Below are positions 3,996-36,270 of a stretch of 36,797 bases of DNA, piece by piece. Within the stretch, counting starts at the first letter, position 1, and the number at the start of each line of letters is the position of its first letter. This DNA comes from a virus. A model generated the notes under the pieces. It worked only from the letters and a program-made list of their open reading frames with translations. It had not been told where the DNA came from and searched no databases. Position numbers and translations under genes: made by a program. Where the stretch lies: IMG/VR virus record IMGVR_UViG_3300047586_000040, positions 1-36,797 of that record, one strand, 5' to 3'.

Positions 3996-4598
3996 TCAGC
4001 ACGGCGGCGGCACGGCGGCGAGCCTCCTCGTTGATGTCTGCGGCGTCCATAGCGCCCCGATGGGCACGGGCACGGCCTTATTGAGATACTTCGCCAGCCG
4101 TTTCCGTTGCCACTTGATTTCGGCGGCGTCGGCGGCGGCGGCGTAGGCGGCGGCGTCGGCGGCGGCGGCGGCGGCGGCGGCGTACAATTCCTCTCGCGTC
4201 GCCTTGCCTTCAACAAACGCCCGCCCGACTTTCACGGCGTGCCAACTCGCCAGGCTCGGCTCCCGCCCAGCCTTCCGTTCCCGCTTTAATGCACGTTCCG
4301 CGCAGTCGCAGGCGAAGAGCCGCAGTTCCTTTTCAACATTTGCTGCCGCTATGAGAGTCCGCGTTCGGCTTACCGCCTTCTCCGTGTCCTTGGCCTCTGG
4401 CGCTGAAATCTCCACGATGCAGGCCACGGGGCCTGGGGCGTACCGCAGCGCAGCGTGCCAAGACGGGCTGCTGTGGTAGCCTCGTTTGCAGAGCGCCAGC
4501 GTCTTCGCCTCATGTGTTCGGCTCTCGCCGACAGTCCAGGGCGGTTCGTTGCCTTCGCCAGATCGCATGTCGGCCTTCAGGAAATGGTACGCCTTCAA
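3996..4598 (-). CDS. DUF7666-like phage protein with poly-alanine insert
   Basis: The 200-residue product starts MKAYHFLKADMRSG and contains an LCKRGYHSS / ALRYAPGPVACIVE pattern matching small phage and bacterial proteins of the DUF7666 type. A helical middle (EKELRLFACDCAERAL) resembles the companion domain in longer homologues. Residues about 140-160 are nearly all alanine, coded by a GCC repeat. Start is TTG with AGGAGG at 6 bases; the ORF immediately follows the palindrome-rich control region 4644-4717. Function is not known for the family. Confidence 0.6.
   Translation of the reverse strand: MKAYHFLKADMRSGEGNEPPWTVGESRTHEAKTLALCKRGYHSSPSWHAALRYAPGPVACIVEISAPEAKDTEKAVSRTRTLIAAANVEKELRLFACDCAERALKRERKAGREPSLASWHAVKVGRAFVEGKATREELYAAAAAAAADAAAYAAAADAAEIKWQRKRLAKYLNKAVPVPIGALWTPQTSTRRLAAVPPPC
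4121..4182 (+). repeat. GGC trinucleotide microsatellite
   Basis: About 20 units of GGC (plus strand), broken by GTC and GTA units, code for the poly-alanine stretch of the overlapping minus-strand gene. Copy number changes by slippage would stay in frame. Confidence 0.85.
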
Positions 4599-4643
4599 TC
4601 TAGCCCTCCTGTCTCACCGTCACCCGCCCTGAAGCTTGGGTGG

Positions 4644-4717
4644 CTAAGTGTCAATCTCCCTATATAGTCATAGGGACAGGCTGACACATATAAATATGTG
4701 TGTAGCCCTACACTTAG
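4644..4717. promoter_or_regulatory. Nested inverted repeats: operator or origin candidate
   Basis: Outer arms CTAAGTGT (4644-4651) and ACACTTAG (4710-4717) enclose two palindromes, CCCTAT-N6-ATAGGG (4658-4675) and ACACATAT-AA-ATATGTGT (4684-4701). The block is much richer in A+T than its surroundings. GTGTCA or its complement recurs at 4648, 4682, 4764 and 4775. It separates the ATPase gene from the DUF7666-like gene. A repressor operator or a replication origin fits; no clear promoter was identified inside it. Confidence 0.55.
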
Positions 4718-8706: not shown

Positions 8707-10167
8707 TCATTCCTCCCCGCCAGGGTGCGGCGGGCGGGCTGTCGCCGCGATAGGGCCAGGTGAACTCGATGCGGAAGACGTCGGAGCCCGACGTCCAGCG
8801 AAGGCACACGGCATCTGCTTGATCGCCCACAACTCGTCGGGGATGTCCCCCTGCTGCCCTGGCCGCGCGGCTGACGCCTGCTTGACGTATGCTTTGACGC
8901 CTGCCGCCTGACACTGGCGCACGATGCTCTCTATCCAGGCCGGATCGCAGGGGCGATGGCGCGGGCCGGACTCGCCGCCAATGACGACGAAATCTATGCC
9001 TGTTGGCGTCTTTGTCTGAGAGCTATTCGGGAGACAGTTTGGAAGGTGATGCCGAAGTCCTGGGCGATTGAGGTTAGTTTCTCGCCCTGTGCCCTCCGGC
9101 TGCGGATTTCCCCTACCTGGCTGGCACTCAATTTCGCCATTGAATTGCGGCTGCCGTTCTGATCGAGTCGGCCCCGCTTCAGGATGTGCCGCGCGTGAGT
9201 CACCTGCTCCAAGTAGGTTGCCAGTTCGAGGTTCTCTGGACGGTTGTCCACCTTGTCGCCGTTCTTGTGGTTCACTGTCATGTTCGGCGGGATCGGACCG
9301 AAGAAGTGACGCCAGACGAGACGATGGGCCATTGCGTGAGTCCGTCTGGAGTTCCACATAACCCGGACTTGGAGGTATTCGCGCTTGCCCGTCCTGTTCT
9401 CGGCCCGTCGGCGCTCGTGCCGATTCAGGCGGGTGCAACCCTTCCAGCGATCCCAGCCCCTGCTCGCCAGCCGCCACACGCGTCCCTGAGCGTCGATCTC
9501 CAGTTCGCCGTCCAGTACCGCTTGGTAGACGATTTCCTCGGTCAGCTTCGGTTTCATCGACTGGAGTATACCATAGATATGGCGAAAGGTCTACCGCCTC
9601 CAGCAGCGGCTCCGCGCTGATCCAGATGTGTGAAGCTGCGCCCTTCTCCTTCATCTCCAACAGTAGCGGTATGCGCTCATCGGCCGTCGCCTGGTTCTCG
9701 ATGCTCGTTCCAGGCCACACGTTTCGGAGCGGCCAGGCCCCGGCCGTGCAGTGAATCAGTGTGGCCGTTCTGATCCGCGCCGAGCCCTTTTCTACGGGCA
9801 GGGGCCACTCGGCAACGTCTGAGGCCAGTTGGGTCATGTAGGCCTTCATCCGCCCCGGCCGCTTCGTCAGCAGGAGGTAGGTGTGCTGGGGCGTGAGCGC
9901 CATCGTCGCGAACACCTTGTCAATGAACTCGTCCGGCACGTCCTCGTGAAACAGGTCTCCCATGAAGGCAACGGCCACCACCTGCGGCTTCCGCCAGTGC
10001 ATCGGCTCATCTAGCCGTTCGGGGTGCAGCGTGACCTTCCAGGGCCAACCCATGCGCTGTGAGAATTGTTCTGCCCAGCAGTTCTTACAGCCCGCCGAGA
10101 CCTTCGAGCAGCCCGTGACGGGATTCCAGGACTTCGTGTCGTAGCCGTGGGGACTGCCCGTGCTCAC
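8707..10167 (-). CDS. DUF5131 (phage Gp37/Gp68-like) protein interrupted by a nested HNH gene
   Basis: Two separated blocks match the DUF5131 family: residues 1-198 (SWNPVTGC, C20/C27/C30, FMGDLFHEDVP, LLTKRPGRM, WISAEPLLEAVDL) and from residue 390 (GIDFVVIGGESGPRHRP ... YVKQASAARPGQQ). In uninterrupted relatives these follow each other closely. Between them lie about 190 residues of low-complexity Arg/Gly/Pro/Ser-rich sequence, which is the other-frame reading of the HNH gene at 8994-9557. The whole 486-codon frame has no stop. The three-cysteine cluster resembles a radical-SAM site, but activity is unknown. Start GTG with AGGAGG. Residues after about 454 may be spurious, as a different frame there also looks coding. 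Confidence 0.7.
   Translation of the reverse strand: MSTGSPHGYDTKSWNPVTGCSKVSAGCKNCWAEQFSQRMGWPWKVTLHPERLDEPMHWRKPQVVAVAFMGDLFHEDVPDEFIDKVFATMALTPQHTYLLLTKRPGRMKAYMTQLASDVAEWPLPVEKGSARIRTATLIHCTAGAWPLRNVWPGTSIENQATADERIPLLLEMKEKGAASHIWISAEPLLEAVDLSPYLWYTPVDETEADRGNRLPSGTGRRTGDRRSGTRVAAGEQGLGSLEGLHPPESARAPTGREQDGQARIPPSPGYVELQTDSRNGPSSRLASLLRSDPAEHDSEPQERRQGGQPSREPRTGNLLGAGDSRAAHPEAGPTRSERQPQFNGEIECQPGRGNPQPEGTGRETNLNRPGLRHHLPNCLPNSSQTKTPTGIDFVVIGGESGPRHRPCDPAWIESIVRQCQAAGVKAYVKQASAARPGQQGDIPDELWAIKQMPCAFAGRRAPTSSASSSPGPIAATARPPHPGGEE
8994..9557 (-). CDS. HNH homing endonuclease nested in the DUF5131 gene
   Basis: The 187-residue protein carries a homing-type HNH domain: AHRLVWRHFFGPIPPNMTVN with H97-K-N-G-D, N105 and N109 (about 75-113). 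A C-terminal helix-turn-helix (KLSASQVGEIRSRRAQGEKL, IAQDFGITFQTVSRI) is usual in this family for DNA recognition. It lies in a different frame inside the DUF5131 gene. Its ATG is about 15 bases after the first DUF5131 block ends, and its TAG lies within the codons for I-D where the second block begins. No Shine-Dalgarno site is visible. The insertion is too short for a group I ribozyme outside the ORF. Confidence 0.8.
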   Translation of the reverse strand: MKPKLTEEIVYQAVLDGELEIDAQGRVWRLASRGWDRWKGCTRLNRHERRRAENRTGKREYLQVRVMWNSRRTHAMAHRLVWRHFFGPIPPNMTVNHKNGDKVDNRPENLELATYLEQVTHARHILKRGRLDQNGSRNSMAKLSASQVGEIRSRRAQGEKLTSIAQDFGITFQTVSRIALRQRRQQA

Positions 10168-34568: not shown

Positions 34569-36124
34569 ATGTGAAGCACTCCGCGCGTCTCATAGATCGA
34601 GCGGTGGTCCTCGTGTCGCATCGCCCGGTCCAGGCCCATCACCAGCGCCACGATCCCGTCAATCTTCCCCTGGCTTGCGGCCTTGTCCGGCTTCAGGTTG
34701 CCGGCGGGGTCCTGTCTCACCGCCACGTTATCCGCCATCCACCGCAGCACAGGGTTGCCGCCGTGGTGAACCTTCCGCCCAAGCAGGCGCCGCATGAAGT
34801 CCTGCATCGGCGCCGCCATCGAGAGGAAGCCCATGCCGAAGCCGGCCACGGTTATCCCCTCGTCGTCCAGTTCCCCGCAGAGTTGGTGCGCCTGAAAGAG
34901 CCGGTCCACGTTCATGTCGACCAGCCGGAAGGTGGCCGCGTCCTGGAGAATCTGCGCCTTGACGAAGGCATAGTCCGTCGCCTCGCCCGGCGTCGCCGTG
35001 AGCCAGCCTTGCCGCGCCCACACCTGGTAGGAGTCGCGGTAGCGGTTCGCCGTATCCTTGAGCCGCGCCTCCGGGCACCAGAAACGGGCCACCACGTCGA
35101 TCTCCTCTGGGTCCTCGCGCGGGAAGACCATCAGCCAGGCCGTCAGGTCGGAGACGGAGCCCAGGTCGAGCCCGCCGTAGCAGGCCCGCCCTCTCAGCGC
35201 GTCCTCGTTGACGACACCCGCGTTGGCATCCCAGAGGTCGAGGTCGATCCAACGCGACTCCTGCTGCGTCCATTGGCAAAGGTGCAGCCGGCGGAAGGTG
35301 TTCTGGAAAGATGGCATCTCCCGCGCCTTGCGTTCCTCTTCGACGAGGTGCTCCATCCGCAGGAAGTCGCCCAGCGCCGGGTTGCAGGCCCGCCACACCT
35401 TCCGGCTCTGCCAGTCGGCCTCCTCGGGCGCCGCGTAGATGGTCGCGTAGAACGTCGGGTCCTCGACTGTGCCTGCCAATACCCGGAGGGCATAGCCGTG
35501 GATTTCCGCGCAGATGGATTCCTGGTCGTATCCAGCCGTCGTGATCATAAACGTGAGCGGCTGCTCCCTGGCCCCCGTCGACGTCATCAGCGCGTCGTAC
35601 AGGTCGCGGTTGGGCTGGACGTGCAACTCGTCGAAGATGATCCCATGCGCGTTGAAGCCATGAGAGCCGGCCGCGTCGGCAGGTATCGCCCTGTAGACGT
35701 TCCCCGTCTTCGGCACGTAGATGCGCTTCGAGGAGTCGATGATCTTGCAGCGCTTGCGGAGCCGGGGAGACCGTCGCACCATATCGGCCGCCACGTTGAA
35801 GACGATGCTGGCCTGGTCGCGGTCGCGGGCCGCGCCGTAAATCTCGGCGCCCTGTTCCCTGTCCGAGAAGAGCAGGTAGAGGGCCACGGCTGCCGCCAGT
35901 TCCGACTTCCCGTTCTTGCGCGGAATCTCGATGTAGACGGTCCGATACTTGCGCGCCCCGTCGGGGTTCTTCCAACCGAAGACCTCCCTGATGATCTTCT
36001 TCTGCCACTTGCGCAGCTTGAACGGCACGCCCGCCCAGCGGCCCTTCGTGTGCTGTAGGCGCTCTATGAAAACGACCGCCCTGTTGGCGGCCGATTCGTC
36101 GAAGTAGTAGCCAGGGTCTTTCAT
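34565..36124 (-). CDS. terL: Terminase large subunit
   Basis: The 519-residue protein is an HK97-type terminase. Walker A PRKNGKSE lies at 68-75, Walker B GIIFDE ends with D165-E166, and the coupling motif ITTAG is at 194-198. The RNase H-like nuclease domain begins GGLDLGSVSDLTAW with D320 and D326, and a later D lies in GKIDGIVALVMG. It pumps and cuts DNA at the portal. ATG overlaps the stop of the 49-residue membrane protein (ATGA); no strong ribosome site of its own, so coupling is expected. Confidence 0.95.
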   Translation of the reverse strand: MKDPGYYFDESAANRAVVFIERLQHTKGRWAGVPFKLRKWQKKIIREVFGWKNPDGARKYRTVYIEIPRKNGKSELAAAVALYLLFSDREQGAEIYGAARDRDQASIVFNVAADMVRRSPRLRKRCKIIDSSKRIYVPKTGNVYRAIPADAAGSHGFNAHGIIFDELHVQPNRDLYDALMTSTGAREQPLTFMITTAGYDQESICAEIHGYALRVLAGTVEDPTFYATIYAAPEEADWQSRKVWRACNPALGDFLRMEHLVEEERKAREMPSFQNTFRRLHLCQWTQQESRWIDLDLWDANAGVVNEDALRGRACYGGLDLGSVSDLTAWLMVFPREDPEEIDVVARFWCPEARLKDTANRYRDSYQVWARQGWLTATPGEATDYAFVKAQILQDAATFRLVDMNVDRLFQAHQLCGELDDEGITVAGFGMGFLSMAAPMQDFMRRLLGRKVHHGGNPVLRWMADNVAVRQDPAGNLKPDKAASQGKIDGIVALVMGLDRAMRHEDHRSIYETRGVLHI

Positions 36125-36270
36125 GCATTGGTCAAGAGAACAAGTACTGCCGCGATCACAAACAGCGGCCAGGCTAGGACTCGCTCTCTCCCTTCAGTGG
36201 ACTGAGCACACATCCCGGCCAAGAAACTACAGACTAGGGCGAGGACAAGAATCAGGTCAGTCCAGATCAT
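36121..36270 (-). CDS. Two-helix membrane protein between terS and terL
   Basis: The 49-residue ORF starts MIWTDLILVLALVCSFLAGM, a first membrane helix, then a charged turn (STEGRER) and a second helix (VLAWPLFVIAAVLVLLT). It overlaps the TerS end by 14 bases and the TerL start by 4 (ATGA), so TerL translation should depend on it. GGAGGGAG lies about 10 bases upstream. The hairpin form is that of small class II holins, but the position at terminase is unusual; membrane anchoring of packaging is another idea. Confidence 0.65.
   Translation of the reverse strand: MIWTDLILVLALVCSFLAGMCAQSTEGRERVLAWPLFVIAAVLVLLTNA

Follow-up and report, generated by a model that had tools for sequence, protein, structure and literature searches.

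The DUF5131 gene of the viral DNA analysed here (the window, 36,797 nucleotides, positions 1 to 36,797 of IMG/VR record IMGVR_UViG_3300047586_000040) is interrupted by an insertion that keeps the phase of its host gene, carries no stop codon in the host frame and is nearly filled by an intact HNH homing endonuclease gene in another frame of the same strand. The first-pass annotation had described an HNH gene nested out of frame in a stop-free insertion of a DUF5131 gene, and the open reading frames, the profile matches and the switch in coding score bear this description out. As an explanation of the whole we favour the in-phase insertion of an I-HmuI-type HNH gene into DUF5131 which is not spliced, with both proteins made and the endonuclease active in homing, a reading that we consider likely. 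The anatomy is the same as that of the ShiLan domain, where an HNH gene is hidden in a stop-free stretch inserted into a phage methylase (Arsenault et al., 2025; PMC11855218), while the host gene, the HNH subfamily and the relative frame are new.

The host gene and the insertion

The DUF5131 ORF begins with a GTG at 10167, upstream of which the sequence reads AGGAGG, and scores 209 bits against the PF07505 profile, for which the curated cut-off is 28.9 (Table 1). Alignments with homologues reveal that the conserved cysteines C20, C27 and C30, all three of which are invariant, are intact, and that invariant residues are kept in both halves of the protein. The first matches of the DUF5131 model in Foldseek were to spore photoproduct lyase, a radical SAM enzyme (E 6e-3, prob 1.00), and NCBIfam gave a sub-threshold match to rSAM_mob_pairA, a radical SAM mobile-pair protein.

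Table 1. Features of the interrupted DUF5131 gene, in positions of the window.
Feature	Position	Strand	Description
DUF5131 (Gp37/Gp68, radical-SAM-like) ORF	8707..10167	-	486 codons, open through the insertion; PF07505 E 1e-61, in two stretches
N-terminal DUF5131 part, ends ...WISAEPLLEAVDLSPYL	9574..10167	-	HMM positions 2-199; DUF5131-frame coding score positive
C-terminal DUF5131 part, GIDFVVIGGESG...DELWAIKQMP	8811..9000	-	HMM positions 206-262; coding score again in the DUF5131 frame
Insertion, ~573 nt (191 stop-free codons when read in the DUF5131 frame)	about 9001..9573	-	homology edges, coding-score switch, low pLDDT at ~residues 201-385
HNH homing endonuclease gene, I-HmuI type	8994..9557	-	187 aa; HNH core followed by C-terminal helix-turn-helix; HNH_3 E 1.8e-17
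HNH stop codon TAG, within conserved host Ile-Asp codons (aTAGat)	8994..8996	-	sequence reading and alignment
Extended -10 promoter-like box, TGGTATACT, at left insertion edge	9565..9573	-	TATACT ends 7 nt upstream of the HNH ATG

In the homologue alignments the first block of DUF5131 homology stops at SPYL (9574) and the second resumes with GIDF (9000), and in the codon-usage score the HNH frame takes over from the DUF5131 frame near 9576 and gives way to it once more near 9000; both switches are sharp, as an insertion predicts. Both alignment and codon score thus agree with the earlier placing of these two blocks and of a gap of some 570 bases between them. Alignment with DUF5131 homologues, which had been proposed as a means of fixing the edges, puts them at 9001 and 9573, but each only to within ~20 nt, since no close uninterrupted relative was found. 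The HNH ATG lies 16 nt past the left edge and its stop at the right edge, so that only ~16 nt of the insertion fall outside the HNH ORF.

Beyond the second homology block, the final 33 residues of the DUF5131 ORF (8707-8810, minus strand) match no homologue. The codon score over this stretch shifts to the third frame, reading VCLRWTSGSDVFRIEFTWPYRGD..., and the next gene therefore probably starts at a GTG near 8807, overlapping the end of DUF5131.

The HNH gene and its candidate promoter

The frame of the HNH ORF starts at the second base of the DUF5131 codons. The HNH family profile matches I-HmuI (1u3e) with an E of 5.7e-32, over nearly its full length; the single sequence without the family profile gave no match to 1u3e, while the first match of the structure model was 1u3e_M (E 9.3e-6). 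The HNH protein and I-HmuI are homologues; in the former the motif residues H97, N99, G100, D101 and N109 are invariant and both the motif and the C-terminal helix-turn-helix are intact. Since its TAG falls within the codons of a conserved Ile-Asp pair of DUF5131, the stop of the HNH gene is apparently supplied by the host gene.

Inspection of the sequence found no Shine–Dalgarno site before the HNH ATG, unlike the GTG of DUF5131 with its AGGAGG. At the left edge, TGGTATACT is the sole match in the window to the pattern TGNTATAMT, for which 0.15 matches are expected, and a promoter scan pairs it with a TAGACC starting at 9593 across a spacer of 17 nt. Because the box ends 7 nt before the ATG, a spacing that would suit a leaderless transcript, this match to the consensus suggests that the HNH gene may have its own leaderless promoter. 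A -10-like box 5-8 nt from the start was found for 5 of 46 GC-rich HNH genes, compared with 7 of 698 control ORFs; the five include the window's own gene and two others that share the same upstream sequence. Three related HNH genes (L020, L050 and L053) have -10-like boxes (TATAAT, TACAAT) exactly 7 nt before the ATG, a hint that leaderless promoters may occur in this family.

The insertion site and the predicted fold

The loop that holds the insertion, between two barrel strands, is highly variable in length. Among 242 distinct DUF5131 sequences, the window's own included, the stretch from EPLL to GGESG comprises 12-138 residues in the homologues (median 41, 5-95% range 17-77) and 207 here. 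Because homologues carry loops of such different lengths, the site is one that tolerates insertions. An AlphaFold2 model built from 59 sequences gives pLDDT values mostly above 85 for the DUF5131 flanks and of 30-40 for ~residues 201-385; it is thus predicted that both flanks fold as one domain across the insertion, and that the insert is disordered.

Is the open host frame due to chance?

Permutation of synonymous codons within the HNH gene gives an expectation of 4.0 stops in the DUF5131 frame, where none is seen (P = 0.006), and resampling with the codon usage of the window gives P = 0.007 for zero stops in this frame. The same permutation test applied to the published ShiLan insertion gives 0 stops against 2.3 expected (P 0.015); for Pacc40, the second case of the ShiLan type (PMC11855218), the test is uninformative, with 0 stops expected. 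When the phage's own genes are divided into 705 overlapping stretches of 187 codons, 61 prove open in the same relative frame, 56 of these 61 in the terminase gene. Most of this chance openness has its source in a 466-codon alternative ORF (34728-36128, minus strand) which overlaps the terminase large subunit gene on the same strand. Several other HNH relatives likewise have few stops in the corresponding frame, and one of them (L011) has none. These figures favour selection for an open host frame, though they are biased by the choice of cases, each having been noticed because it was open; the open frame is unusual, but not impossible by chance.

Discussion

We propose that a free-standing HNH gene of the I-HmuI type entered DUF5131 at its length-variable loop, in phase and with the host frame free of stops, and that the insertion would be removed by splicing neither from the RNA nor from the protein. 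The DUF5131 protein would then be translated as a single polypeptide that includes a disordered loop of ~190 residues, and may well have retained its function. The HNH protein would be translated from its internal ATG, on a leaderless mRNA probably arising from its own -10 promoter at the edge of the insertion, and its translation would end at the TAG supplied by the host. Spread would occur when the endonuclease cuts uninterrupted DUF5131 alleles of co-infecting phages and its gene is copied into the break. A naturally length-variable loop may explain how the host protein could survive such an insertion, and a leaderless promoter of its own is a testable answer to the question of how a hidden HNH gene is expressed.

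The first-pass annotation had left the choice between a disordered loop translated from an in-phase insertion and a very compact intron whose ribozyme overlaps the ORF. The former is the better supported of the two, given that the phase is kept, the loop is variable and the flanks are predicted to fold. A self-splicing group I (or II) intron is suggested by I-HmuI itself: the gene for this nearest solved relative of the HNH protein lies in a group I intron carried by a Bacillus phage (PMC2988022). Against this, the covariance search for intron cores which had been put forward as a check found no match to the intron families of Rfam, either at gathering thresholds or at permissive ones (E up to 10), and the folding energy of the insertion RNA equals that of shuffles (z -0.18). 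A conserved group I ribozyme core is absent by both tests, and hardly any room for one is left outside the ORF (~16 nt), through which the conserved HNH positions run. The intron reading was rejected on these grounds and we hold it to be very improbable. An intein-like or otherwise protein-spliced element would, as inteins are, be in frame and stop-free, which fits the insertion. In the DUF5131 frame, however, no intein family was matched, Pfam finding DUF5131 only, and the translated insert, with its many Arg, Gly and Pro and with 68% disorder-promoting residues, is predicted to be disordered. The junctions (L/W and T/G) have neither the Cys or Ser required at the start of the insert, nor a His-Asn at its end, nor a Cys, Ser or Thr after it. 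This reading too was rejected, the missing family match and the wrong junction residues leaving it scarcely any credence.

A different possibility is that a recent insertion of the HNH gene inactivated DUF5131, that the frame is open by chance, that the long product lacks function or is never produced and that an accessory gene is being lost. The DUF5131 gene is dispensable, because a related sibling phage (L250) has none at the corresponding place, between RecT and a nuclease gene, and frames other than the coding one can stay open in this GC-rich phage, as the terminase gene illustrates. An insertion that is both in phase and stop-free, however, would arise by chance with a probability of only ~1/3 times 0.006 to 0.09, both halves of DUF5131 retain conserved residues and host codon usage, and the insertion lies in a loop of the fold that is highly variable in length; we therefore regard inactivation as unlikely. 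That the assembly joined unrelated pieces of a metagenome might be suspected for a single IMG/VR contig whose junctions were not found in a second copy. The host frame is nevertheless preserved across both junctions, at the right junction conserved host codons provide the HNH stop, and an HNH gene occurs independently inside another DUF5131 gene (L100), all of which make an artefact most improbable.

The in-phase, unspliced insertion that we favour finds its closest parallel in ShiLan, where the HNH start lies 18 nt into the insertion and the stop in its last four bases, no splicing signature is present, the loop is predicted to protrude and leaderless translation has been proposed (PMC11855218). 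Both are stop-free, in-frame insertions in a phage enzyme gene with an HNH gene in another frame, which starts ~16-18 nt into the insertion and stops at its end; both lack an intron or intein signature and a Shine–Dalgarno site, and in both the loop is predicted to be protruding or disordered. The host gene is DUF5131 here in contrast to a methylase in ShiLan, and the HNH protein of the window, of the I-HmuI type with a helix-turn-helix, differs from the zinc-finger-flanked HNH of ShiLan to the extent that alignment is confined to the HNH core (63 columns, 35% identity). The relative frame is also another one, and the HNH gene of the window, which has an ATG start, is preceded by a candidate -10 box, whereas no box comparable to TGGTATACT was seen at the HNH start of ShiLan. 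Finally, the insertion occupies a variable loop here but lies between the codons of highly conserved residues in ShiLan, which we treat as a property of the ShiLan site and not as defining for this kind of insertion.

The earlier remark that introns, inteins and the spaces between genes are the normal places for homing endonucleases overlooks ShiLan (PMC11855218) as well as mobE in nrdA of phage Aeh1 and mobA in T4 gene 60, HNH homing endonucleases which lie inside coding regions with no intron (PMC2988022). The window shares with mobE and mobA the intronless insertion of an HNH gene in a coding region, with retention of host function demonstrated for Aeh1 NrdA (PMC2988022); there, however, the split host gene encodes two polypeptides, while here the frame is continuous. 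I-HmuI belongs to the same protein family as the HNH protein of the window but differs in its group I intron, none being detected here. In the reports that we found, hidden out-of-frame HNH insertions are confined to DNA methylase genes of mycobacteriophages, to which DUF5131 is an unrelated host. An unrelated gene, an unrelated HNH subfamily and another frame together suggest a general, splicing-free lifestyle of homing endonucleases inside genes. The long host-frame product resembles that of an ordinary annotated gene, and such elements are thus easily missed. Much more tentatively, the insertion might represent a self-contained and portable gene-within-gene parasite under selection in both frames, with its own leaderless promoter, a stop borrowed from the host and synonymous codons that keep the host frame free of stops, which would settle without splicing in tolerant loops of unrelated phage enzymes; this is conceivable, but we would not at present call it probable.

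Relatives of the nested gene and of its host

No close relative with an empty or an occupied site was found in viral or genome collections, and a search for the exact empty site by way of the RecT neighbour and terminase relatives found it in none of 11 related records, several of which are short fragments. Among ~80 HNH loci elsewhere none is truly nested, there being partial overlaps only (L050, L053). HNH genes of the window's kind lie directly upstream of DUF5131 in three cases (L097, L171 and L217) and HNH genes abut it downstream in three more (L192, L391 and L086), and in phage LunaStella an annotated HNH gene follows DUF5131. This adjacency is consistent with HNH genes that may repeatedly target DUF5131. 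Of ~240 distinct DUF5131 genes, L100 alone contains an HNH gene, at the 3' end and in the frame of the tail: the HNH gene (4218-4670) has a product fused to a DUF5131-type C-terminal tail, GKKRAGRQLDGRTWDEYP, and the upstream DUF5131 ends in a different, shorter tail type, which looks like an insertion with replacement of the DUF5131 end.

Some homologues have additions of their own in the variable loop. In L100, L333 and L334 it is extended to 127-138 residues. These extensions were considered as possible hidden genes and rejected as such: all three are alike and seem to be natural lengthenings of the loop, and on account of this similarity they probably constitute a genuine domain of unknown function. 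In three further DUF5131 proteins (L117, L134 and L172) the loop at the site of the HNH insertion contains CxxC pairs resembling zinc ribbons.
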